From: a virus
Reading direction: 5' to 3' (one strand)
Virus record (IMG/VR): IMGVR_UViG_3300043399_000304
Coordinates: 1-41,032 of that record
Length of the DNA: 41,032 bases
A program made the position numbers and the translations under genes. The notes under the pieces are model-generated. The model did not search any database. It was not told where the DNA came from and saw only the letters and a program-made list of their open reading frames with translations. Below, one piece after another: positions 3,162 to 40,178 of the stretch (position 1 is its first letter; each line of letters begins with the position of its first letter).

Positions 3162-4830
3162 AGAGGATTTAGCAACATGGCATTACTACCATTAAATACA
3201 TTTAAAACAAAAACTGCGGTGTTAACCACATCGACTTATAACGCTGCAAATTGCGCTAGGGACACCGGGCTAATTGTAGATTCTATAGCATTCGACATTT
3301 TATATTCTGGAACAACCCAGTCGAGATTTTCTGGATTGCAATATTGGGCACAGGGTGCAAGTAAAATTCCAGGTGAAACTTTGCAAACACTAGCGGCATT
3401 GGATCGAGCAAAAGAAGTTGCTAAACAACTAGTGATTAACCAGACTGTATCAGTATCCCCAGGAAACGGTGAAACGCAAATAGTCGATTTACCATCAGGT
3501 GGAGTTAACGGACAGTCAAAAATTGCAGCAGAATTCGATCTTATATCTAGAATTATCGAAAACGGAACTAAAGGTGTTACAGACCTTATTGAACCGAATA
3601 AAGAACAAACTACAGATACAGATTTATTAAATTCTGCAGCTATTTTGTATGCAAACAGAGGATTTTTACAATCAGAAATTATTGCTTACGTAAATAGCCA
3701 GTTTAACACATTTAGTTATAATAAAACAGATTGCGCAAGAGATACTCGGTTAATAGTAGACTCTATTGCCTTCGACTTGCTAACTGATGGTTCGACTCAA
3801 AGTATCTTTTCAGGATTACAATATTGGAGCCAAGGTTCGACACAAGTTCCGGACCAAAGCGCACAAACCCTTGCTGCAATTGCTAGGATAAAAACCGTAG
3901 CACAAAATGTGATACGAAATATTGAAGTAATTCCAACAGATGGCAACGATGAATCGCAATTTATCGGAAATAATGCAGAAGGTAACCTAGCCAGTGTCAC
4001 ACTAGTAGGTGGATTATTTGATGTTATTACCGGTATTATTACGGCAGGAACCAGTGCAGTTACAGATCAGGTAATTCCTAACGGAGAGAGATCACAAATT
4101 GAAGGTATTATTAACGCTTACACTTTATTGCAAAATAATAAGCGTTTTATACAAGAAGAAGTCATTGCATGGATTACTAAACAAATTTCTGATAACACTG
4201 GTCTCGGAGGCATTTGGGATGGGTTTACCTACGATCAAGAAAAATGTTTCAGAGATGCCGGGTATATTATAGATAGTGTTAGCTTTGACCTATTATTCGG
4301 CGGAAATCGTCAGAGTATACAAGCCGGGGTCTACTATTATGGATTTTCTACAACTACCAGCGTATTCCCTACACAGCGATCTGTAGCAGTCACCGCATTC
4401 AATTACTTACGATCAATATTAGATGAAGTAATAGAGGGCAACCCAGTTGCAGGAAAGTATCAAACAGCAGTTAAACAAAGAACTAACCTTCCTCCTGGTA
4501 CATTAAATAACTCTGAAATTGCTAAAACTAAAATTGACATTATTACTGGCATGATTGAAAACGGCCCTGACACCAGTGTTAGGGAAGCTATCAATGTTAA
4601 CTATACCGCAGATCGAGATAGAGAAAATGCATATAGAATGCTGTTAGCTAATCGAGACTTCTTAGCTGCTGAAGTAGTTGCATTTGTTGACAGCCAAACT
4701 CGTGGATCTTTTAGCTATGATGTTTCATTATGTTCAAGAGATGTAGGATATATTGTTGATTGTATACGTTTTGATATTTTGTGGGGAGGAAACAGGCAGG
4801 CTGTTCAAGCAGGGGTGTACTACTATGATC
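441..4830 (+). repeat. Dispersed C-RD-GYIIDSI protein repeat across two genes
   Basis: Seven full copies of a roughly 40-codon module start near 441, 912, 2673 (first gene) and 3231, 3711, 4224, 4710 (second gene). A partial copy lies at the window edge (3 to about 95). DNA identity is low, but Cys, Arg-Asp, Gly, Asp-(S/A/C)-(I/L) and the terminal Tyr/Trp are kept in most copies. The 2673 copy is degenerate, with ALIPSKI replacing GYIIDSI. Confidence 0.75.
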
Positions 4831-5546
4831 ACAGTGCAACAATTAGCCTTGTTCCTACTGAAAAAGTTGATACAGTAAATGCATATAACTACTTAAAAGA
4901 TGTTATTGCAAGCATTGTTTCCTTGACAAAATTCCCAACACCGTTACAAACCGAAGTACTGCAGGTTACTAACTTACCTGCGGCATATATAGACTCAACA
5001 GACGGCTATATTCTTACGCAGATTAATCAGAAAATAGATATTATTACCGGTATTATAAGCGCTGGCCCAAGTGCAGCACCTGGCGCTGCAGCACCGATTG
5101 ATTTAACTGGACTATCAACAGATCCTAAAATTAACAAAGCATTTGATCTGCTATTAGCAAATAGAGATTTCTTAGTTGCAGAAGCAGTTGCATATCTAAA
5201 GTCGCTGAATACCCCTAATACTACCAAAATTTACACAGCACCACCTGGCATTACTGCAATTATACTAATGGCACAGGTAGCCAACGTGTCAGATACCGCA
5301 GCAAAAGTTACGTTCGGACACTATCGACGCCTACCGGTATTCGCTGACCCGTCTACACAAAATGGATATCAAGCAGGAGACACGTTAACAGAACTGGTAA
5401 AAGAATTCACTGTACCTCCAAACGATTCAGCAACCGTAATTAACGGAAAAATGATTTTAGAAAGCTTTGACAGCGTGATAGCATATGCTAGCCGTTCAGG
5501 CGCTTTAAAAATTACCTTAAGTATACTAGAGACTGCAAATGCCTAA
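3177..5546 (+). CDS. Virion structural protein with four C-RD-G modules
   Basis: A 789-residue protein starting at ATG 3177 behind an AGAGGA ribosome-binding site. Four copies of the module seen in the preceding gene start near 3231, 3711, 4224 and 4710. Each has an invariant Cys-x-RD pair, then G-x-I-(V/I)-D-(S/C)-I, and ends in a Gln/Gly/Tyr-rich stretch such as SGLQYW or AGVYYY. Each is followed by a helical segment ending in a phrase like NRDFLAAEVVAFV. The last about 105 residues form a different, probably beta-sandwich module (YTAPPGITAIILMAQVANVS to SILETANA) that I associate with termini of marine-phage appendage proteins. The gene overlaps the next one by 8 nt, implying translational coupling. 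A virion appendage component is inferred from family and context; no enzymatic motif was seen. Confidence 0.8.
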   Translation: MALLPLNTFKTKTAVLTTSTYNAANCARDTGLIVDSIAFDILYSGTTQSRFSGLQYWAQGASKIPGETLQTLAALDRAKEVAKQLVINQTVSVSPGNGETQIVDLPSGGVNGQSKIAAEFDLISRIIENGTKGVTDLIEPNKEQTTDTDLLNSAAILYANRGFLQSEIIAYVNSQFNTFSYNKTDCARDTRLIVDSIAFDLLTDGSTQSIFSGLQYWSQGSTQVPDQSAQTLAAIARIKTVAQNVIRNIEVIPTDGNDESQFIGNNAEGNLASVTLVGGLFDVITGIITAGTSAVTDQVIPNGERSQIEGIINAYTLLQNNKRFIQEEVIAWITKQISDNTGLGGIWDGFTYDQEKCFRDAGYIIDSVSFDLLFGGNRQSIQAGVYYYGFSTTTSVFPTQRSVAVTAFNYLRSILDEVIEGNPVAGKYQTAVKQRTNLPPGTLNNSEIAKTKIDIITGMIENGPDTSVREAINVNYTADRDRENAYRMLLANRDFLAAEVVAFVDSQTRGSFSYDVSLCSRDVGYIVDCIRFDILWGGNRQAVQAGVYYYDHSATISLVPTEKVDTVNAYNYLKDVIASIVSLTKFPTPLQTEVLQVTNLPAAYIDSTDGYILTQINQKIDIITGIISAGPSAAPGAAAPIDLTGLSTDPKINKAFDLLLANRDFLVAEAVAYLKSLNTPNTTKIYTAPPGITAIILMAQVANVSDTAAKVTFGHYRRLPVFADPSTQNGYQAGDTLTELVKEFTVPPNDSATVINGKMILESFDSVIAYASRSGALKITLSILETANA

Positions 5547-14011: not shown

Positions 14012-17000
14012 ATGGCAACAACTAATAAAGAATTTGAAGTTAAACACGGGCTTGTAGTAGCAGCTACTACACCATCAGTAAGCCCAACAACCGGATCTCT
14101 GGTCGTAAAAGGTGGCGCAGGCATTGCAGAAGACCTATATGTAGGTAGCGATGTATATGTTACAGGATCTGTATTTGCAGAATCTATTGTTTCGAATAAA
14201 TCAACGGTACTTAACGAAACTACAGACACCGCAACACATTTTTTAACCTTTGTCTCAAATAGTACTGGAGATGAAGTATTAAAAGTCGATGATAGCGATT
14301 TATTTTACCAACCAAGCACTGGCAGTCTGGGAATAGGAAACAGCGAGTTCCTTTACAAATTTACAGTCGGCGGAACGGCTAAAATTACCAATAACTTGTT
14401 TTTAACAAAAGACGAACCATCGACAAGCACAACTTCTGGAACATTACGCGTCACGGGTGGTGCCGGTATAACAGAAAACTTATATGTTGGCGGAAACACA
14501 TCAGTAACGGGTAATTTAACAGTTAGCGGAGGCACAATAACTGCAGGAAATGTTGCCACTACATTACTTGGTGAAAATACTACCACGGAAATAATAATTG
14601 CTAGCGGACAAACTAGCGGAGACTTGTTAATTGGCGGCACTTTACAAACAGGAACTATTACAGTAGATCGTAGTACAGTAGCGCATACACTTAACCTTGG
14701 AACAGGTATCAATGGTAGTGGTGTAACAAAAACTGTTAACTTAGGTACTGGCGGTTCGGCAGGTAGTATAACTAATATTTCTGTTGGTAGTACTTCGGGC
14801 GGCACGACTACAATACACAGTCCTAGTCTAGTGGTAAGTGGTAATCTAATAGTAAACGGAACAACCACTACTGTTAATACTAATATACTAACTGTTGACG
14901 ATAAAAATATCGAACTTGGGTCTATTGTATCTGCGGTTGTCAGTATAACAGGAACAGTAGGCTCAATTACTGGCACCGGGCCCTGGACTGCTGCAATTAC
15001 TGGAATGACTAATACATCTGGACTAATTCCAGGTGCCGCTATCACAGCAACTAATGGTGCAGGAACAATAGGAACTGGGGGTACTGCTGTAGTATTTTCT
15101 GTTGATAGTTCTACTAGCATTACGTATACGTATACTGGTGGTACAGCACCAACTACAGGTACAGTTACTGATATTACAACCACCGGACCGACTGATGTAA
15201 CTGCAGACGGTGGCGGCATTACGTTAAAAGGAACCACAGATAAAACTATATTATGGGTTGATTCTACAGATAGTTGGACAAGTAATCAAAACTTTTCTTC
15301 CCCGTCATATACCGTAACAGGAACTGGAAATATCACTTTTGCTGATGGCAATACGAATAGGGGTGTTAAAGGACTAGTTGGAGAGTCTGATTACTGGTAC
15401 ATTGGCGGCGGCGCAACTGGTATTGATGCAGGATTTTTAGAAATTGCAACGGGCAATAATAAAAATGAACCAATTTATGTCAGGCAATACGGTACAGAAG
15501 ATGTTAGAACTGCTACTTTACTGGATGCTTCTGGAAACACCATATTCCCAGGAACTGTAACAGCTACACAATTAGTATCTACAGTTGAGGTAGGAACCGC
15601 TCCTTTGAGCGTAGCTAGCACAACTGTAGTTGCTAATTTAAATGCAGATTTACTTGACAGCTATCATGCTGAAGATTTTGCCCTAGTAGGGCACAGCCAT
15701 ACGCTTACCATAGGTGATGGCACGGATTCAAAGTTAACACTGGATGTTAATACTGAAAGATTAAATCTGGTAGCCGGATCAAACATATTAATAGCATATG
15801 ATGACGACACTAATTCGGTCACTATGTCTGCTACGGGTCTTAGTTCGTTTAATACCATAACTATAGACAACACTGATACCGAATATAATTGGAATACCGC
15901 AGATGGAACCCAAGTTGTAACTGATAGTGTTAATGATCAGCTAAAAATAGTTGCAGGATCCGGAATAAGAGTATCTGCTGATGCAAATAACGATGCTATA
16001 CGTATAGAACATAAAGATACCAGTAGCGTAGAAGACGTAACTGCCCAAACAAATAAATTTGTTAACGCAATTACATTTGATACATTCGGACACGTACAGA
16101 CAATAACTACAGGGGATGTTGTGAATAAAACTTATTGGCTAGATGGTACAACCCCATCAGCTAATATAGTTGATATTCAATTAATTGATTCTGATGCTGT
16201 TGAAGATTATATTAGAGTAACAGGTTCAGGATCCACTACTGTCGCCTGGGATGAGGATACCCAGCAGTTAACAATTGATTCATCATATGTCAATACAACT
16301 TACACATTAGATGGCACATCACCGTCAGCTAATGTAGTTGACCTTGAATTGGTGGGAACAGATAGTAGCACAGATTCTATTAGAATAACCGGTTCTGGAG
16401 CTGCCACTGTTTCTTGGGATGAGACAAATCAGAAGTTAACAATTTCTGCAACGAACACAACTTACACAATTTCTGCTGAAACAGAGACTAATGGTGCAAG
16501 TTTAAAATTATCCGGAGCCGATTTATCAACCGATAGCGTGAAGTTAATCGCAGGATCAAATATTTCTATCACCAGGGATGATGAAAATCAAATTACATTT
16601 GGTTCTTCGTTTACAAATACTACATATTCGTTAGATGGCACATCACCGTCAGAGAATATAGTTGACCTTGAATTGGTGGGAACAGATAGTAGCACAGATT
16701 CTATTAGGATAGCCGGAATCGGCTCTACTACAGTATCATGGGATGAAGACACCCAGAAAATAACGATTGGTTCTACCTACGTAAATACAACTTACACAAT
16801 TTCTGCTGAAACAGAAACAGGAGGCGCAAGTTTAAAATTATCTGGTAGTGATTCATCAGCTGACAGTGTAATACTAAAAGCAGGCTCGAATATTTCTATC
16901 ACCAGGGATAGCGAAAATCAAATTACATTTGGTTCTTCGTTTACAAATACTACATATTCGTTAGATGGGTCAACACCTGCAGATACAACTAATATCGTTG

Positions 17001-17743
17001 ATTTACAGTTAATAGGAAACGATAGTAGTACAGATTCCATTAGAGTAACTGGTTCAGGTTCTACAGTAGTTTCTTGGAGTGAAACGGATCAAAAGTTAAT
17101 AATTAACTCAACTAACACCGATACAACGTATAGTATCAGTGCAGGAGATGGGGCAGTAACGGGTGAAAAGACTATTATATTAACTGCTACTGGAAGTGGT
17201 AGTGGAACTGACAGTGTAACGTTAAAAGCAGGCTCTAACATTTCGTTAGCTAGGACAGATGATGTTATTACTATTAATTCTACTTATGTTGATACTAATA
17301 CTGATGAATTAGTAAAAATTACTGACGAAACAGCCGATGCAGGAACATATTACCCTGCGTTCTTTTCGTCGAACACTGGTGCACAGTCCGGATATGTAAG
17401 TTCCACTAAACTTACATTTGTACCTAGTACAGGAACATTAAGCGCTACTGAAATAAACAGTTTGTCTGATGCTCGTTTCAAAGAAAATATAGAAGAAATT
17501 TCTGATTCTTTTGGCATTTTAGAGAAAGTTCAACCAGTTAAATTTTCATGGAAAGAAACCGGAAAAACTGCATACGGTGTCATAGCACAAGATATTGAAA
17601 CGGTATTACCTGAAGTAGTTAGTACCAATGACTATGGAATTAAAAGTGTAAACTATTCACAGCTAATTCCATTACTGATTGCCGTTGTAAAACGCCAACA
17701 AGAACAGATAGAAGAGTTAAACAAGCGATTGGGTAACCAATAA
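14012..17743 (+). CDS. Tail fibre with C-terminal S74 intramolecular chaperone
   Basis: A 1,243-residue fibre; ATG 14012 follows AGGGAAG. The N-terminal part has two copies of a GSLVVKGGAGIAEDLYVG / GTLRVTGGAGITENLYVG module, then TTTIHSPSLVVSGNLIVNG. The middle contains YWYIGGGATGIDAGFLEIAT, a receptor-side beta-sandwich phrase common in such fibres. Residues about 700-1110 are four units of roughly 108-110 residues (TYTLDGTSPSANVVDLELVG to AGSNISITRDDENQITFG). The last about 95 residues are an S74 peptidase/chaperone: SLSDARFKENIEEI, then YGVIAQDIETVLPEVV and a terminal coiled coil (KRQQEQIEELNKRLGNQ). In the endosialidase family this domain drives trimerisation and cuts itself off at the conserved Ser, here the Ser of LSDAR, using a Ser/Lys pair. 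Both residues are present, so maturation is expected. Its own promoter lies upstream. Confidence 0.88.
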   Translation: MATTNKEFEVKHGLVVAATTPSVSPTTGSLVVKGGAGIAEDLYVGSDVYVTGSVFAESIVSNKSTVLNETTDTATHFLTFVSNSTGDEVLKVDDSDLFYQPSTGSLGIGNSEFLYKFTVGGTAKITNNLFLTKDEPSTSTTSGTLRVTGGAGITENLYVGGNTSVTGNLTVSGGTITAGNVATTLLGENTTTEIIIASGQTSGDLLIGGTLQTGTITVDRSTVAHTLNLGTGINGSGVTKTVNLGTGGSAGSITNISVGSTSGGTTTIHSPSLVVSGNLIVNGTTTTVNTNILTVDDKNIELGSIVSAVVSITGTVGSITGTGPWTAAITGMTNTSGLIPGAAITATNGAGTIGTGGTAVVFSVDSSTSITYTYTGGTAPTTGTVTDITTTGPTDVTADGGGITLKGTTDKTILWVDSTDSWTSNQNFSSPSYTVTGTGNITFADGNTNRGVKGLVGESDYWYIGGGATGIDAGFLEIATGNNKNEPIYVRQYGTEDVRTATLLDASGNTIFPGTVTATQLVSTVEVGTAPLSVASTTVVANLNADLLDSYHAEDFALVGHSHTLTIGDGTDSKLTLDVNTERLNLVAGSNILIAYDDDTNSVTMSATGLSSFNTITIDNTDTEYNWNTADGTQVVTDSVNDQLKIVAGSGIRVSADANNDAIRIEHKDTSSVEDVTAQTNKFVNAITFDTFGHVQTITTGDVVNKTYWLDGTTPSANIVDIQLIDSDAVEDYIRVTGSGSTTVAWDEDTQQLTIDSSYVNTTYTLDGTSPSANVVDLELVGTDSSTDSIRITGSGAATVSWDETNQKLTISATNTTYTISAETETNGASLKLSGADLSTDSVKLIAGSNISITRDDENQITFGSSFTNTTYSLDGTSPSENIVDLELVGTDSSTDSIRIAGIGSTTVSWDEDTQKITIGSTYVNTTYTISAETETGGASLKLSGSDSSADSVILKAGSNISITRDSENQITFGSSFTNTTYSLDGSTPADTTNIVDLQLIGNDSSTDSIRVTGSGSTVVSWSETDQKLIINSTNTDTTYSISAGDGAVTGEKTIILTATGSGSGTDSVTLKAGSNISLARTDDVITINSTYVDTNTDELVKITDETADAGTYYPAFFSSNTGAQSGYVSSTKLTFVPSTGTLSATEINSLSDARFKENIEEISDSFGILEKVQPVKFSWKETGKTAYGVIAQDIETVLPEVVSTNDYGIKSVNYSQLIPLLIAVVKRQQEQIEELNKRLGNQ
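16307..17260 (+). repeat. Near-identical 324-330 bp tandem repeats in fibre gene
   Basis: TTAGATGG anchors occur at 16307, 16631 and 16961. The stretches after 16307 and 16631 are nearly identical at DNA level for about 85 nt. The stretches at 16561 and 16891 (TATTTCTATCACCAGGGAT) match for about 80 nt. The nucleotide conservation points to recent duplication or gene conversion rather than only protein-level constraint. Confidence 0.85.
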
Positions 17744-17781: not shown

Positions 17782-19668
17782 ATGGCAATTAAAATTAATA
17801 GCTGTACTGTTATCAATGATAGTAGAGGCTTAGAAAACATAACAAACTTAAAGACTATCGGCGGATGTAGTATTTTAGGTACCGGTGACATTAGTTTAGA
17901 AGGTTACGGGGAATTTAAGCTAAGTGGTGTTTGCGGAACTATATATAGTAGCCAAGCAGGCACCGGTGGCACCGGTAAACATAATTTCTTTGCTGGATTC
18001 TGTGCCGGTCGATCTAACTCTACAGGTAGTAATAATACATTCTTTGGTTGCAATGCAGGATGTGCGGTAACTACTGGATCAAACAACGTCATCATTGGAA
18101 GTGTTGCTGGATCTGCTGGGTTGTGTAATACGGTTATTCTGGCAGCAGGTGCTACCGAGAGATTAAAAGTTGATGCTACTGGCTTGTTCATCAACGGGTC
18201 TGTATTTACCGGATACGCCGGTAGTCGAGGTGACACTGGGTATACTGGATCTGTTGGCTATACCGGCAGTCGAGGTGACACCGGATATGTTGGTAGTCGA
18301 GGTGACACTGGGTATACTGGATCTGTTGGATACACCGGAAGCCAAGGGTCATGCGGGTATACCGGCAGTAGCGGAGAAATTTCAAAATCTGCAGGAGTTT
18401 GTGGAACTATATACAGTAGCCAAGCAGGACAAGGAGGGACTGGAACCAGTAACTTCTTTGCTGGATATTGCGCTGGTGTAACAAACAGCACTGGGTCCAA
18501 TAATAACTTTTTTGGAAACCGTGCAGGCTACTGTAACACTGCTGGATCAAGTAATACATTTTTTGGATTCTGTGCAGGTTTTAGAAATTCTGTAGGTAAT
18601 AATAATACCTTTATTGGTGGTTCAGCGGGAATATGTAACGTTACTGGTTCGGCCAACGTATTTATTGGTGGGTTATCTGGATTTACAAACTCTACTGGAA
18701 TGAGTAACATTTTTATAGGCTATCAAGCAGGATATAAAAATGATACCGGCTGTTACAACACATTTATTAACTATTCCGCAGGAGCATGTAACGAAACTGG
18801 AACACATAATATTTTTATCGGATGCAATGCTGGCCTTAAAAATATAGGTAGTAATAATATATTCTTTGGCCAATCAAGTGGGAGCAATGCAACCGGCGCA
18901 GGCAGTAATAATATCTTTATTGGTCAGGAAAATGGTTATTCTAATTCTACTGGTGAACATAATATTTTTTACGGTAGACTGGCTGGTTATAAAAATACGT
19001 CCGGAGCTCACAATTTCTTTGCAGGGTACTGTTCTGGATATAATAATACTACCGGATCAAATAACACATTCTTTGGTTGTTTCTCGGGCTGTTCAGTAAC
19101 TACTGGTTCAAATAATATTATTATAGGGCCAATGGCAGGTGCTGCTGGTTTATGCAATACTGTACTGATGGGAACTGGAACATGCGAACGTCTACGGGTT
19201 GATGATACTGGATTATGCATTAACGGAGTTAAATATACTGCAGCAATTTCGTTAGCAGGAACTTGCGCAAATACAACCTATTACTTACCTATGTCGTCGG
19301 CCTCAACTGGTACCTGGGATAAAGGTGCAGTTGATTCCACTAACATGTATTATACTTCTGGAAATCAAACTCTATACGCAACCAACATTAACTTTGCATC
19401 TGATCAACGATTAAAAGAAAATATTAAAACAATTCAAGATTCTGTTAATGTATTATCAAGATTACGAGGAGTTTCTTTTAATTGGAGGAATACCGGGCAC
19501 TTAGGTTACGGAGTAATCGCGCAAGAAATTGAAAAGGTATTACCTGAAGTGGTTCATGAGATAAATGGATCAAAGAGCGTTAACTATGTGTCCTTGATTG
19601 GATTTTTAATCGAAGCAATTAAAGAACTATCTAACGATGTCGATACTTTAACAACTAAAGTTGTTTAA
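17782..19668 (+). CDS. Cys-rich, collagen-like tail fibre with S74 chaperone
   Basis: A 628-residue protein. A duplicated block (GVCGTIYSSQAG) opens two repeat arrays of an 18-20 residue unit of the type AGY-x-NTTGSNNTFFG-x-x-AG; the first has about three units and the second about thirteen. Between them lies a collagen-like stretch of Gly-x-y triplets (GYTGSRGDTGYTGSVGYTGS), about 18 triplets. About 23 Cys (3.7%) are spread through the repeats, unusual for a phage fibre. The last about 95 residues are an S74 chaperone: ASDQRLKENIKTI, then YGVIAQEIEKVLPEVV and a C-terminal helix, with the Ser and Lys expected for autoprocessing. The chaperone resembles that of the preceding fibre although the shafts are unrelated. 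Probably a host-binding side or long fibre; receptor unknown. Confidence 0.87.
   Translation: MAIKINSCTVINDSRGLENITNLKTIGGCSILGTGDISLEGYGEFKLSGVCGTIYSSQAGTGGTGKHNFFAGFCAGRSNSTGSNNTFFGCNAGCAVTTGSNNVIIGSVAGSAGLCNTVILAAGATERLKVDATGLFINGSVFTGYAGSRGDTGYTGSVGYTGSRGDTGYVGSRGDTGYTGSVGYTGSQGSCGYTGSSGEISKSAGVCGTIYSSQAGQGGTGTSNFFAGYCAGVTNSTGSNNNFFGNRAGYCNTAGSSNTFFGFCAGFRNSVGNNNTFIGGSAGICNVTGSANVFIGGLSGFTNSTGMSNIFIGYQAGYKNDTGCYNTFINYSAGACNETGTHNIFIGCNAGLKNIGSNNIFFGQSSGSNATGAGSNNIFIGQENGYSNSTGEHNIFYGRLAGYKNTSGAHNFFAGYCSGYNNTTGSNNTFFGCFSGCSVTTGSNNIIIGPMAGAAGLCNTVLMGTGTCERLRVDDTGLCINGVKYTAAISLAGTCANTTYYLPMSSASTGTWDKGAVDSTNMYYTSGNQTLYATNINFASDQRLKENIKTIQDSVNVLSRLRGVSFNWRNTGHLGYGVIAQEIEKVLPEVVHEINGSKSVNYVSLIGFLIEAIKELSNDVDTLTTKVV
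18211..18378 (+). repeat. Collagen-like Gly-x-Tyr-position triplet repeat
   Basis: An imperfect 9-nt periodicity encodes triplets such as GYT, GSR, GDT, GYT, GSV. A larger block (CGAGGTGACACTGGGTATAC) is repeated almost exactly at about 18226 and 18299, with a diverged copy between, showing tandem duplication at DNA level. Confidence 0.85.
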
Positions 19669-28686: not shown

Positions 28687-29451
28687 ATGCCAGATATAAA
28701 TCCGCAAGCCGAAAGACAAAAAGTATTCGATTACGTTCGCCTAATGCTAGGTGACGGTATGATAGACGTTGAGCTAGATCCTGCTCATTACGAAGTTGCT
28801 CTAAGAAAGGCATTAACTAAATTCCGCCAGAGAAGCCCAAACTCGGTAGAAGAAAGTTATATGTTTTTAGAATTGGGCAAAGACACCAACGACTATAGAT
28901 TACCTGACGAGATAATTGAAGTTAGAAGTGTGTTTAGACGTACACTTGGATCCAGAACTGGTGGCGGAACTGGTACAAATTTTGAACCATTTAACCTTGC
29001 ATATACAAACACGTACTTACTTAACAGTACAATGTTAGGTGGACTAGCTACTTATGAACTATTTGCTCAATATCAAGAAATGGTGGGTAGATTTTTTGGT
29101 AGTTATATTGAGTTTCAATGGATCCCTCATAGTCATACCTTAAGAATTTTACAACGACCGTTTGTAGAAGGCGAAAATATAATGCTTCGCTGTTATAACT
29201 ATAAACCAGACTATGTATTACTTAGTGACATATACGCACAGCAGTGGTTATATGATTACACCTTATCGAACTGCAAGCTAATACTAGCTCAGGCTCGTGA
29301 AAAGTTTGCTCAAATTGCAGGTCCGCAAGGCGGTACCTCTTTAAATGGGGCGGCATTAAAATCGGAAGCCACAGCAGAAATAGAAAAACTAGAAAAAGAG
29401 TTAGAAACATTAGTAGCCGGCGGAACTGGGTATACCTTCATTATCGGATAA
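28687..29451 (+). CDS. gp13: gp13-like neck protein
   Basis: A 254-residue protein matching T4 gp13 (309 residues) in layout. The N-terminus has LGDGMIDVELDPAHYEVALR with a helical continuation, like T4 [20 protein letters not shown]. It is followed by YRLPDEIIEVRSVFRRTLGS, matching the T4 strand ending RILRTNIGS. The C-terminus NCKLILAQAREKF to GTGYTFIIG matches T4 LNGQILARHQG to PPFGILVG. gp13 closes the portal after packaging and joins head to gp14 and gp15. The start has AGGAG and a late promoter just upstream. The central region is shorter than in T4. Divergent pairing with gp14-gp15 fits co-expression of the three neck components. Confidence 0.85.
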   Translation: MPDINPQAERQKVFDYVRLMLGDGMIDVELDPAHYEVALRKALTKFRQRSPNSVEESYMFLELGKDTNDYRLPDEIIEVRSVFRRTLGSRTGGGTGTNFEPFNLAYTNTYLLNSTMLGGLATYELFAQYQEMVGRFFGSYIEFQWIPHSHTLRILQRPFVEGENIMLRCYNYKPDYVLLSDIYAQQWLYDYTLSNCKLILAQAREKFAQIAGPQGGTSLNGAALKSEATAEIEKLEKELETLVAGGTGYTFIIG

Positions 29452-29456
29452 TTTGA

Positions 29457-31610
29457 ATGAGATTTAAAGATTTTAAAATTATAGAATCCGTGTTAAATGA
29501 AATTAACATGACTAGGAAACTTTATAAAATGGCAGAATCGTTGCCAGGAGTACTAGTGGGCATGGAGTTTGAAATGTTGGTTCCAACAGGAACGGCTGAG
29601 GAGGTTGATGATAGGCCTACAGAAATCCCAGATAACATTACTACGATTGCTGATGTGGTGGAGTTTTTCTCCATTGGGCAATCAAACGGTCTAAACGAAT
29701 TGGAGTGGCTTGGTCGCGGTCTAGAGACTGATTTTGAAAAATGGCGTGAAGAACAGACCGAACGCATCTGGCGTCGAGAAGGTGGACGTCAATACTTCAA
29801 AAATTTCTACAGATCAGAGTGGTTCGACGAAGAAGATGCTATGGAAAAAGCCAGAGAAGAAGCCTATTTAAGAGATGTTCCGACTGATGATCCCGAGTAC
29901 TATGATTTAATTTCCATATTAGTCGAAGAGTTGTTAGACGAAGAGGTATTCGATCTTTGGCATGACAAAAACAGTACAGCATATCGGCAAGCAAGAGAAC
30001 AATTCCTAGAAGATCGATCAGACGAGTTCGAAGAACTGACTGAATATGAATGGATTTATCGGAATCAAAATCTTGAACGCTTTTTAAGAAACATCACTAA
30101 TGATTATGACCTGGCCTGGCCACTTGCCGATGATGTATCAAAGGATCCTAACGCTTTTATCAAAGCTACTGCTGCAGACTTTCAGAAAGTTATCGGAAGA
30201 ACAGTGAACTGGGGGCCTCGATACAAGTCATGCCCGCGTGGTAACCACTATTGCATAGAACCAGATGGCAGTTTAGAGCCACGCAGACGTGATGCCATGG
30301 GATTAGAATTTGTTAGTCCCGCAATGCCCTTAGATGAAATATTAAAAGATCTTGATACAATTAAAAAATGGGCCGATAAAAAGGGAATCTATACTAACGA
30401 CTCTACCGGGTTACACATGAATATTAGTATTCCAGGGTATAGTGTTGATAATTTAGATTATGTAAAAATAGCGTTATTACTTGGTGACGAGAAAATATTA
30501 ACAGATTTCGAACGACTTCTAAATATTTATACGGTCCCAGCTATGAGACGAATTCGAACAGCAATAAAGGACGAACCTAGGTCCGCATCATATGCATTTG
30601 AATATTTACACAAGGGACTAAATTTACTGGCTAGCCACTCTATACATTCTGGAAAAACGGAGAAATATACAAGTATCAATACTAAGAAAAGTGAAACTTC
30701 TGGAAAAGAGTGGATAGAGTTTCGAAGTCCCGGTAATGACTGGCTAAATGAAAAATTTGATTTACTTAAACCTACACTAATGAAATTCATAGTTGCATTT
30801 GATGCTGCCATGGATCCAGAAAAAAATAAAGCTGAATACCTTAAAAAGCTATATGCCCTACTAAGTCCTAAGCTAGGTGAAGATGTTGTTAAGTTATTTG
30901 CTAAACACAGCGTTCTACCACAACCAAGGAATGCACAACAAGAGCTTAAGCAGCGGTTAAAATTGAGAAAAGCATCGAGACAAGGTGGAATGTTTACCTG
31001 GATGGTTGGTAGAAGTTCAACTGATCAGATTCAAGTCGCCGCGCCCGATGAACGCCATGCGTTACTGGCTGCTGCAGAAGAATGGGGAGTCTCACCCGAC
31101 GACCCAATAATTAAAAAATGGAAAATTGTATTACTTAAAGACGCTACCGCGGTGCCTAAAGACAACACCGTAGATCCGGTACTAGTTTTAATGCCACACG
31201 GGCCTGGTCCGTGGGAAATTTATAGAAGGAACAACGGAAGAAGCATCGAAGACCTAAGAGGTAGAACTCGGACGTTGGCGCACCAAGAGGCAATTCGCCA
31301 TATGGCAGAATTAGGGATCAGGGGCCAACTCTTAGCACATTACGGTGTCAGAACTATTGAAAGCGACGACTTATCAGATATCGAACAACAATTAGCGCAG
31401 CCAACCGGATCTCAAAACTTATCGGACCCATTAGCTCCAGAAGGTCCGGGACCGTGGGAACTCTATAGACGATCAGACGGAAGTTCGGTACACCGCTTAT
31501 CTGCAACAAGTCCTGGAATTGCGAAACTTAATGCACTAGGACATCTTATGACACTCCATGATGGAAACAGCGCACACTTATACGGTGTTAGAACTATTCA
31601 AAACACATAA
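29457..31610 (+). CDS. Amidoligase-fold protein, possible head-packaged enzyme
   Basis: A 717-residue protein. Motifs fit the amidoligase (COOH-NH2 ligase, PF12224-type) family, related to glutamine synthetase and gamma-glutamylcysteine synthetase, which uses ATP to form amide bonds: GMEFEM (35-40, acidic E37/E39), EPDGSLE (268-274), LEFVSP (283-288), STGLHMNISIPG (316-327), YTSIN (404-408) and WIEFRSPG (419-426). A roughly 210-residue acidic helical insert separates the first two. After about residue 440 comes a helical linker and three diverged copies of a small domain (514-560, 584-635, 664-715), the last two beginning GPGPWE and ending YGVRTI. The N-terminus MRFKDFKIIESVLNEIN resembles a T4 capsid-targeting leader. 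It follows gp13 by 5 nt and precedes the small gene by 1 nt. The substrate is unknown; fold confident, virion location inferred. Confidence 0.8.
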   Translation: MRFKDFKIIESVLNEINMTRKLYKMAESLPGVLVGMEFEMLVPTGTAEEVDDRPTEIPDNITTIADVVEFFSIGQSNGLNELEWLGRGLETDFEKWREEQTERIWRREGGRQYFKNFYRSEWFDEEDAMEKAREEAYLRDVPTDDPEYYDLISILVEELLDEEVFDLWHDKNSTAYRQAREQFLEDRSDEFEELTEYEWIYRNQNLERFLRNITNDYDLAWPLADDVSKDPNAFIKATAADFQKVIGRTVNWGPRYKSCPRGNHYCIEPDGSLEPRRRDAMGLEFVSPAMPLDEILKDLDTIKKWADKKGIYTNDSTGLHMNISIPGYSVDNLDYVKIALLLGDEKILTDFERLLNIYTVPAMRRIRTAIKDEPRSASYAFEYLHKGLNLLASHSIHSGKTEKYTSINTKKSETSGKEWIEFRSPGNDWLNEKFDLLKPTLMKFIVAFDAAMDPEKNKAEYLKKLYALLSPKLGEDVVKLFAKHSVLPQPRNAQQELKQRLKLRKASRQGGMFTWMVGRSSTDQIQVAAPDERHALLAAAEEWGVSPDDPIIKKWKIVLLKDATAVPKDNTVDPVLVLMPHGPGPWEIYRRNNGRSIEDLRGRTRTLAHQEAIRHMAELGIRGQLLAHYGVRTIESDDLSDIEQQLAQPTGSQNLSDPLAPEGPGPWELYRRSDGSSVHRLSATSPGIAKLNALGHLMTLHDGNSAHLYGVRTIQNT

Positions 31611-31611
31611 T

Positions 31612-31992
31612 ATGAAAATAAATGAAATAATTTCTGAGGGTAAAAACCGAGCAAAATTAACAAAACGGCAGCAGCAATCCATGCCAGGCGCAAACACCTA
31701 TCATGATGCGGTTCGTGCAAACAGTGATTATGTTGCTTACCGTATGGGCATGGCCGTGGCCGGCACAGATGGAAAAACCCCACCAAATATAGATAAAGAA
31801 TCTTGGATTGGCAAGGAAAAGTCTGCACATCCTTATACTAAAGAAGAACAGGATATGCTTAAATTGGCATATAAAGCGGCAGGTGCAAGTTACACTGATT
31901 TAAATAAAGGTGACATGCGTAGTCTAGAACTTGATTCTGTTAACAAATCTAGTCCAACGCCTAAAAAGAAAAAGAACAAATACGGTGTATAA
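31612..31992 (+). CDS. Small Lys-rich protein with capsid-targeting-like leader
   Basis: ATG 31612 lies one base after the amidoligase stop and gives 126 residues; an upstream in-frame ATG at 31558 would overlap that gene and lengthen the leader. The N-terminus MKINEIISEGKNRAK closely resembles T4 internal-protein leaders (MKTYQEFIAEA) and contains I-S-E-G, a good match to the gp21 protease site (L/I-x-E then G/A). The middle has YVAYRMGMAVAGTDG, a phrase I associate with small hypothetical proteins of marine phages. The C-terminal tail is basic (PTPKKKKNKYGV). There is no membrane segment. It could be an internal head protein or, given the tight coupling, a partner or substrate of the amidoligase; both are inference. 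Confidence 0.7.
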   Translation: MKINEIISEGKNRAKLTKRQQQSMPGANTYHDAVRANSDYVAYRMGMAVAGTDGKTPPNIDKESWIGKEKSAHPYTKEEQDMLKLAYKAAGASYTDLNKGDMRSLELDSVNKSSPTPKKKKNKYGV

Positions 31993-32045: not shown

Positions 32046-32696
32046 ATGCTAATAGGTCTAGTGGGATTAATAGGTAGTGGGAAAGATACTGCTGCAGATT
32101 ACTTAGTGCAGCATTGCGGATTTAAGAGAGATAGTTTCGCTAATACACTTAAAGATGCTGTGGCTGCAGTGTTTGGATGGGATAGAGAAATGATAGAAGG
32201 CCGAACTAAAGAAGCTCGAGAATGGCGAGAACAAGTAGACACCTGGTGGTCTAACCGATTGAATATACCTAATCTAACCCCACGTTGGGTTTTACAGCAA
32301 TGGGGCACAGAGGTTTGTAGAATCGGATTTCATGATGATATCTGGATCGCTAGTCTAGAAAATAGGGTCAGAAATACTGATACTAATATTGTTATCAGCG
32401 ATGTTAGGTTTCCTAACGAAATTGCCGCCATTAAAAATGCAGGAGGTCTAGTGGTACGCATTAAACGCGGAGAAGATCCTTATTGGGTCCAGCATGCTGA
32501 AGTAGTAAACAAAGGCCCAACTGGTAATCCACAGTGGAATGAATCAAAAATTTATTTAGATGCGACCGGTGTACATACGAGCGAAAGTAGCTGGGTTGGC
32601 GCCAGTATAGATTGTGTGATTTTAAACAATGGATCCATGCTAGATCTGTTTGATAGCGTTAAAGGTCTGGTTGAATCCCACCAGCCCGCCAGGTAA
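32046..32696 (+). CDS. gp1: Deoxynucleoside monophosphate kinase (T4 gene 1 type)
   Basis: A P-loop NTPase of 216 residues: GLIGSGKDT (7-15) is the Walker A, TPRWVLQQWGTEVCR (78-92) and VISDVRFPNE (116-125) are signatures of phage dNMP kinases, which phosphorylate dNMPs to dNDPs for DNA synthesis. ATG 32046 is chosen because GGAG precedes it by 6 nt; an upstream TTG (32034) would add four residues and overlap the ribosome-binding site. Expression from its own sigma70-like promoter fits a role in early nucleotide metabolism, unlike its late neighbours. The 3' end overlaps the convergent HNH-type gene by 38 nt. T4 gene 1 also lies next to tail and head genes, so the location is conserved. Confidence 0.9.
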   Translation: MLIGLVGLIGSGKDTAADYLVQHCGFKRDSFANTLKDAVAAVFGWDREMIEGRTKEAREWREQVDTWWSNRLNIPNLTPRWVLQQWGTEVCRIGFHDDIWIASLENRVRNTDTNIVISDVRFPNEIAAIKNAGGLVVRIKRGEDPYWVQHAEVVNKGPTGNPQWNESKIYLDATGVHTSESSWVGASIDCVILNNGSMLDLFDSVKGLVESHQPAR

Positions 32697-32997
32697 TGCC
32701 TTCTTTAGCAAGAACTCTTTGACAGTTAGCACATACTGTTTTTAGATTTACAATTCTGGTGTTATTCATATCACCATCCACATGAAATACATTAAATTGT
32801 TCGATATGTTTAGATGAAAATCCGCATTTGTCACATTTGGATTTTATTCGATAACCGTCTTGATACCACTTAGGTATTCCCTTTGCGATACCACCAGAAA
32901 GACACACTTCGCATTTTCGTCGATAGTGTGTTTTTCCTTCTTTAATATAGTTAATTGCAGCTGGTCTAAAACCACAAATACACAAAGGTCTGGACAT
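32659..32997 (-). CDS. HNH-type endonuclease-like zinc protein
   Basis: 112 residues from ATG 32997. Two Cys clusters are visible: C6/C8 with C29/C32, and CDKC (55-58) with CANC (89-92). Between the latter lie FHVDGDMNN (71-79) and NLKTVC (84-89), the layout of small phage HNH proteins (H-x-D, N and paired zinc Cys). A longer frame opens at ATG 33087, but that would read through the TATAAATA at 33003-33010; its AAAGG ribosome-binding site makes it a real alternative. The gene runs against both neighbours and overlaps the dNMP kinase end by 38 nt. Such free-standing HNH genes often act as homing endonucleases or packaging-associated nickases; which applies here is unknown. Confidence 0.75.
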   Translation of the reverse strand: MSRPLCICGFRPAAINYIKEGKTHYRRKCEVCLSGGIAKGIPKWYQDGYRIKSKCDKCGFSSKHIEQFNVFHVDGDMNNTRIVNLKTVCANCQRVLAKEGITWRAGGIQPDL

Positions 32998-33002
32998 ATA
33001 GC

Positions 33003-33010
33003 TATTTATA
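33003..33010 (-). promoter_or_regulatory. Late promoter motif TATAAATA (minus strand)
   Basis: Exact late consensus on the minus strand, ending 5 nt before ATG 32997. With T4-like spacing the transcript would start at or next to the ATG. Confidence 0.55.
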
Positions 33011-33066
33011 TTATCCCTTTTGTTCCCCTTTTTTGTAGTTATAAAAGGACTTTTTTTACAAAACGG

Positions 33067-33074
33067 GCTAAATA
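33067..33074 (+). promoter_or_regulatory. Late promoter-like motif GCTAAATA
   Basis: One mismatch to the NATAAATA consensus. It lies 36 nt before the sheath ATG (33111) with a TAGGAG ribosome-binding site between; the sheath gene would be expected to have a strong late promoter. Confidence 0.5.
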
Positions 33075-33110
33075 TAAGTGAAGACATAGAACCTTTAGGA
33101 GTAAACTAAT

Positions 33111-39563: not shown

Positions 39564-40178
39564 ATGAAAAGATTTATTGAATACCTAAAAGAAAATGCAG
39601 AAGAAAAAAAGTACGCATTCAAAATTAAAATCGCAGGAGACCTTCCGGAAAACTGTGAAGATTGCATGGAAGCGGCACTGCAAAAATACCAAGTGAGTAG
39701 ATTTACCAAAGGTAAAAGTACACCTATTCAGGAAAATTTATTAGATTTCCCTACTATAAAAAATAGTCAAATGACTGTGTTTGAAGCTGAGGTTGACTAT
39801 CCGGCAACCAGTGCAGTTATTGCGGAATTAATATCTAATGCAACTGGAATTAGTAAAGATTGCATACGAGTTCGAACTCCTCAAGAAGAAAGCAATTGGG
39901 AAATTGAACACGAACACGATTTGCAAAAAGACGAGACCACTAAAGATGCTAAACCTTTACTGCATCAAGATTATGAAAAAACAAAAAGCCCCGTGTTAGC
40001 TGGAGACAAGTATGTTTCAAACTTTTTAAAAGATTTGGCAAAAGCTCGTAAAGAATCTGAACAGTACAAGGGAACTAACGATTCGTTGTTAGCAAAAAAA
40101 TTACACAAAGAAAAAGCCGAAACAATGCCAGCAGCAGGTCCTGCTAGAAGCCTATTCGGTGGAACTAAGAAGGACTAA
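39564..40178 (+). CDS. Virion-type protein between terminase genes
   Basis: 204 residues. N-terminus MKRFIEYLKENAEEKKYAFK is short, amphipathic and Glu-rich, similar to capsid-targeting leaders (L-K-E-N as a possible gp21 site). Residues about 17-115 alternate strands and helices (FKIKIAGDLPENCEDCMEAA, then STPIQENLLDFP and MTVFEAEVDYPATSAVIAEL), suggesting a ferredoxin-like fold. The second half is charged and helical, with FLKDLAKARKE and AKKLHKEKAE, ending SLFGGTKKD. I recall similar proteins beside terminase and capsid genes in large phages but know of no assigned function. The next gene starts 2 nt downstream. A head or prohead role is inferred from leader and location only. Confidence 0.65.
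   Translation: MKRFIEYLKENAEEKKYAFKIKIAGDLPENCEDCMEAALQKYQVSRFTKGKSTPIQENLLDFPTIKNSQMTVFEAEVDYPATSAVIAELISNATGISKDCIRVRTPQEESNWEIEHEHDLQKDETTKDAKPLLHQDYEKTKSPVLAGDKYVSNFLKDLAKARKESEQYKGTNDSLLAKKLHKEKAETMPAAGPARSLFGGTKKD

Follow-up and report, generated by a model that had tools for sequence, protein, structure and literature searches.

A predicted phage amidoligase with a capsid-targeting-like leader, a candidate head cargo of uncultivated T4-like jumbo phages

The window, which is the whole 41,032-nt stretch of viral DNA analysed here, encodes a standalone phage amidoligase of 717 residues (29457..31610, + strand, stop codon included). With a probability of roughly 0.6, we read this protein as cargo that is targeted to the capsid, trimmed by a protease and active in the next host. 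It would be made late in infection as a glutamine synthetase (GS)-like, ATP-dependent enzyme and carried in the phage head. The first 10-15 residues would form a capsid-targeting leader binding the prohead core, and an S77 (gp21-type) protease would cut after KIIE-10 and/or LNE-15, the folded enzyme staying in the head. The amidoligase would then be delivered together with the DNA into the next host, linking a carboxylate and an amine there; its host target may be a small molecule, a peptidoglycan peptide or a protein. We infer capsid targeting, cleavage, injection, enzyme activity and target from the sequence. The initial annotation had proposed a head-packaged amide-ligation system made of two genes. 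Its packaging part receives indirect support from the GS-like amidoligase, the T4-like leader, an S77 protease and a gene slot shared with other leader-bearing ORFs; its two-gene part is not supported.

The amidoligase and its gene neighbourhood

The window is contained in a 77.6-kb viral contig, IMGVR_UViG_3300047548_000777, as judged from sampled 60-mers found in register every 5 kb, and the remainder of this parent contig was also read. The amidoligase gene lies 5 nt downstream of a gp13-like head-tail adaptor gene, the upstream border of the slot (Ad2; 28687..29451, + strand; PHROG 211, E = 3.6e-32), and 1 nt upstream of a gene for a 126-residue protein (31612..31992, + strand), with the coordinates, lengths and spacing given by the initial annotation. 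The start of the small protein at ATG 31612 is set by its family alignment; a 144-residue version starting at ATG 31558 is the mechanical longest ORF only. Further 3′ come, in order, a deoxynucleoside monophosphate (dNMP) kinase gene that forms the downstream border (32046..32696, + strand; PHROG 139, E 2.1e-50), an antisense HNH-like ORF (32659-33087), and the sheath and tube genes. The place of the kinase in this order is the same in relatives, and the position of the HNH-like ORF between kinase and sheath is also conserved. Overall, the neighbourhood consists of late neck/tail genes (gp13, gp15-like, dNMP kinase, sheath, tube and head closure). Elsewhere in the window, two tail-fibre-like ORFs with C-terminal endosialidase-chaperone (Peptidase_S74) domains (14012-17743 and 17782-19668) belong to a series of very long ORFs in which Ig-like, collagen and glycine-rich matches occur. 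At 3177-5546, a probably spurious Phycobilisome Pfam match (25.7 bits) overlaps with strong PHROG matches to short tail fibres.

The Pfam Amidoligase_2 profile (PF12224), to which the initial annotation had pointed, scores 28.1 bits against residues 236-378 of the 717-residue protein, above its curated cut-off of 22. A plain protein search for relatives returned the parent contig as the sole match. The family was collected with the pattern GMEFEM[LIVMF]VP, which gave at least 120 stretches in viral contigs and, from them, 121 ORF segments. All the amidoligase motifs named in the initial annotation are present, namely GMEFEM (35-40), EPDGSLE (268-274), STGLHMNIS (316-324) and EWIEFRSP (418-425). 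In a 50-row alignment of phage relatives that are 30-39% identical to the protein, E37, E39, E268, D270, E284, H320, N322, E421 and R423 are invariant. From general knowledge of the GS superfamily, we take these residues to fill acidic metal-binding positions and the His, Asn and Arg roles.

The AlphaFold2 (AF2) model has a mean pLDDT of 80 and places strands at the motif segments (33-43, 265-269, 280-286, 319-324, 407-411 and 418-424). Invariant residues and model strands together outline a GS-like catalytic region (29553..30830, + strand, residues about 33-458) built from GMEFEM, EPDGSLE, GLEF, GLHMN and EFRSP and interrupted by a helical insertion. When the model was searched against the PDB, all 20 best matches were glutamine synthetases (top E 1.5e-4, probability 1.00), with poor global superposition (TM 0.12-0.25, rmsd 11-17). 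A PDB sequence match to 'N5' (E 0.007) is restricted to the helical insertion and was disregarded. The best viral matches are annotated amidoligases, gp196 of Agrobacterium phage Atu_ph07 among them. Taken together, the profile score, the invariant residues and the glutamine synthetase matches make it likely that the protein is an active GS-like amidoligase, as predicted from sequence and model. Its C-terminal part carries two repeats, GPGPWE[IL]YRR...YGVRTI (31200..31601, + strand, residues 582-635 and 663-715; profile matches 1.2e-19 and 3e-19). A role for them as a general cargo tag was considered and set aside, the repeats being confined to amidoligase ORFs in the loci examined.

Leaders, the prohead protease and the shared slot

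In T4, gp21 cuts after L/I-x-E; capsid-targeting leaders are N-terminal and 10-19 residues long, and positions 8 and 10 are required for processing (PMC9026906). The amidoligase begins with a leader of this kind (residues 1-15, 29457..29501, + strand), MRFKDFKIIE/SVLNE/INM, in which the slashes mark two putative sites: I8-I9-E10 followed by S, and L13-N14-E15 followed by I. The small protein begins with MKINEIISE/G (leader residues 1-9, 31612..31638, + strand), which is conserved across its family; its [LI]xE motifs end only at E5 and E9, and E9 is invariant in 31 members. Both leaders noted by the initial annotation are real and fit the T4 rule (KIIE-10, IISE-9).

In the amidoligase, E15 is invariant in the 50 relatives. 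Of 61 standalone forms, 89% have an LxE exactly 20 residues upstream of GMEFEM; all 35 fused forms have it as well, kept at the point at which a leader would end. A second LxE, five residues further upstream, is found in 59% of the standalone amidoligases. In the AF2 model, residues 1-6 have pLDDT below 50 and residues 13-19 form the loop joining the leader helix to the domain. After LNE-15, P1′ is Ile or Val, and a conserved Met occupies position +3. The conservation of I16 and M18 is not explained by a cleavage site alone, and L-x-E-I-x-M could instead be the structured start of the domain.

The parent contig encodes an S77 (gp21-type) protease (G001:C1:62182-62625; PF03420, E 6.5e-29), whose gene adjoins a scaffold-like gene and the major-capsid gene. 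At this threshold, the protease is found in 6 of 7 amidoligase-bearing records longer than 300 kb. In addition, the N-terminal region of the major capsid protein contains an LxE/[SN] boundary that recurs, small variations aside, in the parent contig and five related records (RKYLAE/SATAGATS, RKYLAE/SASTGATS, RKYLKE/NATAGS, KSLLAE/SSAGTT and KSLLSE/SSAGTT) and in Atu_ph07 (APLME/NATAGATS). Conservation of this boundary suggests that the protease of this phage group probably has T4-like specificity.

In relatives, the slot order is gp13-[X]-small gene-dNMP kinase-sheath. X is missing in L005, L009 and L015, and in L011, L014 and L023 it is an unrelated ORF beginning MKVYEIISES, MKVYDIISES and MKVYEILSEG, respectively. 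Since the same slot holds other tagged proteins, the amidoligase is probably one of several interchangeable shipped proteins.

To count such leaders, we used the N-terminal pattern M[KR]x(3-7)[LI]xE, with same-strand neighbours as the sample and shuffling for the expectation. The resulting figures overstate independence, because the pattern was fixed after examples had been seen and the contigs are related: 34 of 194 neighbours of the small gene carry the leader (1.3 expected; internal-Met control 1.5), as do 34 of 152 neighbours of standalone amidoligases (1.45 expected). These hits fall into 8 sequence clusters, the 717-residue amidoligase being one, and 20 clusters, respectively. More distant genes are also enriched, to a lesser degree (14/538 versus 3.9 for the small gene, 33/354 versus 2.9 for standalone amidoligases), and the 382-kb record G002 has the pattern in 19 of 479 genes (3.8 expected). 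Enrichment on the 77.6-kb contig by itself is weak (3 of 60 called genes, 0.8 expected), and one of these three matches, MKFLKRSQINEKN, is probably spurious. This unimpressive count leaves room for chance resemblance, so the case for the leaders rests on the relatives, which make chance unlikely. In T4, used as a positive control, the pattern occurs in 4 of 244 genes (2.4 expected), finding IPII and IPIII and missing IPI and Alt. The pattern is therefore of modest power for single genes and becomes strong only when many are pooled.

Several leader-bearing ORFs were recorded individually. In the window, a 204-residue ORF (39564-40178) beginning MKRFIEYLKEN fits the pattern and matches a PHROG of virion structural proteins (E 8.4e-6). 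On the same contig, outside the window, a hydrophobic 408-residue ORF (L094:10963-12186) begins MKVYEIVREERLDEIG, a leader resembling that of the amidoligase, and has no PHROG match. An HD_4 domain protein (L210:4612-5163, E 1.3e-17), with the leader MRYSEIIAED and reminiscent of SpoT/Mesh1-type hydrolases, adjoins an amidoligase. L126 has two adjacent amidoligases; the second (L126:6451-8430; PF12224, 27.4 bits) is divergent and has a leader of its own, MKLFEFDPPLDE followed by A. Two leader-bearing ORFs with FHYT/YHGTS-like starts (L100:1906-2772 and L220:17993-18637) look ADP-ribosyltransferase-like by eye and have no Pfam match. Finally, a second small leader-bearing family (MRAREFI.E..LPGL..DPY..YRFGVAIA) lies beside the small gene in L034, L035, L036 and L041; many contigs have the two families in tandem, and the second is by appearance a paralog.

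Fused relatives, the small protein and rival explanations

Elsewhere, the amidoligase is a module in multi-enzyme ORFs of 1000-2600 residues, and 35 distinct ORFs have other modules upstream of it. A Pfam scan of four fused examples identified M48 peptidase and dCMP deaminase; matches to NTP_transf_2 and GNAT stayed below cut-off. The ORFs in L131, L109, L172 and L212 (1500-2600 residues) contain nucleotidyltransferase, metallopeptidase, an SGYIP module, amidoligase, WEIYN repeats, and GNAT or deaminase. LxE density per position is 1.0% overall. The amidoligase core, at 1.1%, is close to this value, and the 43-residue stretch preceding it reaches 6.3%; without the fixed site it is still 4.4% in this linker, which thus lies at 4-6 times background. 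In 20 of 30 cases, a strict LxE stands immediately before a short module whose first residues are [AS]SGYIP; nearly all others have Glu at or beside the boundary. Such LxE-rich junctions are the expected look of a polyprotein cut by the prohead protease, and they would also fit a shared core-binding helix. We tentatively propose, at somewhat less than even odds, that a large group of uncultivated T4-like jumbo phages load interchangeable enzymes (amidoligase, HD hydrolase, nucleotidyltransferases, metallopeptidases, GNAT and deaminase) into the head via a shared short leader. In many of these phages, several enzymes would be made as one polyprotein, which the prohead protease would cut within the prohead at LxE junctions, a single gene thereby yielding separate injected effectors.

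The small protein was found in at least 105 viral contigs, of which the best 80 were kept (49-64% identity, parent contig aside). It had no match in cultivated phages or in genome contigs, none better than 0.02 among PHROGs, and no PDB relative of note; its AF2 model is poor (pLDDT 64, pTM 0.35). The initial annotation had paired it with the amidoligase, its Lys-rich tail (KKKKNK) being the proposed amine acceptor. Adjacency with a 1-nt gap and leaders on both proteins speak for such a two-component system, and a survey of co-occurrence bears it out in part, both families being encoded in 7 of 7 amidoligase-bearing records longer than 300 kb. However, the genes are 94-258 kb apart in these records (at 102.7 and 196.7 kb in G017, for example), the window's own locus is the only examined neighbourhood in which an amidoligase adjoins the small gene, and 12 of 13 small-protein records are without PF12224. 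The C-terminus also varies within the family (KKKKNKYGV, RKTNKYGV, GFKGYKRK), so nothing points to the tail as acceptor, and we regard the two-component explanation as very improbable. Being widespread and almost always without an adjacent amidoligase, the small protein is, as judged from its family, a common component of this phage group and no dedicated partner. It would be cargo or a core protein in its own right, with its own leader.

The main rival to the injected-cargo reading is a cytoplasmic amidoligase that modifies peptidoglycan or small molecules, with L-x-E-I-x-M as the start of the fold and the leader likeness fortuitous. The conserved I16 and M18 argue for a structural role of this kind. 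The rival reading also has a parallel in podovirus enzymes of the same catalytic family, PF12224 (LUZ24, tf, UFV-P2, PSA-HP1), whose genes are grouped with those for COOH-NH2 ligase, glutamine amidotransferase and ATP-grasp proteins in cassettes of the peptidoglycan type (PMC3890496, PMC5498523). Unlike them, the 717-residue protein has no such cassette, and its gene sits among late neck/tail genes; it also has a leader and C-terminal WE[IL]YRR repeats. Moreover, the leader is common to neighbouring unrelated ORFs, and LxE density stays high upstream of the fixed site even as the length and origin of that segment, leader or linker, vary. A cytoplasmic enzyme is thus rather unlikely. The leader would equally place in the prohead an enzyme acting on the virion itself, cross-linking or amidating head, neck or tail proteins with an outcome like covalent capsid cross-linking, and the late neck/tail cluster (gp13, gp15-like, sheath, tube) agrees with this. 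We consider such a role improbable, since the amidoligase is accessory, being missing from relatives with the same neck cluster and from G002 and G003 (367 kb), and since the modules fused to it in relatives (nucleotidyltransferase, metallopeptidase, GNAT and deaminase) resemble effectors more than enzymes with a structural task.

Comparison with known systems

The only cultivated homolog found is Atu_ph07 gp196, 28.6% identical over 212 residues. It begins MRWQDISSKKLTELKM, and its N-terminus reads MRWQDISSKKLTE followed by LKM, i.e. KLTE/LKM. Its gene lies near the portal gene, within CDS 170-215, one of three clusters holding most of the 131 virion proteins detected by mass spectrometry (PMC6102473); the text searched does not name gp196. 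In contrast to the 717-residue protein, gp196 has 500 residues, is encoded on the strand opposite to its neighbours and has no small-protein neighbour. With a published virion proteome for this nearest cultivated relative, the packaging reading is directly testable.

The ejection proteins of the giant phage SPN3US are likewise head cargo whose N-terminal propeptides are removed by a gp21-type protease (PMC7411985, PMC10052503), but they differ in their A-x-E motif, mostly long propeptides and other cargo families. Polyvalent proteins of phages and conjugative elements (PMC5512222) resemble the relatives of the 717-residue protein as ORFs of 1000-2600 residues with nucleotidyltransferase, metallopeptidase, GNAT and deaminase domains. 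They are recognised by two or more effector domains; the 717-residue protein has one enzyme domain plus repeats, and the fused relatives in L109 and L212 have two or more in one polypeptide. What sets the relatives apart from polyvalent proteins is the gp21-type LxE motifs at their module junctions. The word 'amidoligase' is absent from the polyvalent-protein paper and occurs once in a jumbo-phage overview, in the reference list only. Two points appear to be new against the searched literature: the presence of an amidoligase in cargo of this type, and the LxE junctions of its multi-enzyme relatives.

The closest parallel comes from T4 IPI-III and Alt, which share with the 717-residue protein a short leader that has M[KR] at its start and L/I-x-E at positions 8-10, a late gene, an S77 protease encoded by the phage itself and variable cargo. 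The T4 proteins have a capsid-targeting sequence, are processed by gp21 and are ejected with the DNA, whereas for the amidoligase packaging and cleavage are predicted. Outside T4 and phiKZ-like phages, proteins that are packaged in the head and injected are not easily identified. Should the rule of leader and LxE junction hold in this large uncultivated group, injected effectors could be listed from sequence only, and amide-bond chemistry would join their known set: T4 cargo is an ADP-ribosyltransferase or a small anti-restriction protein, while the cargo proposed here is a GS-like amidoligase with a second LxE.
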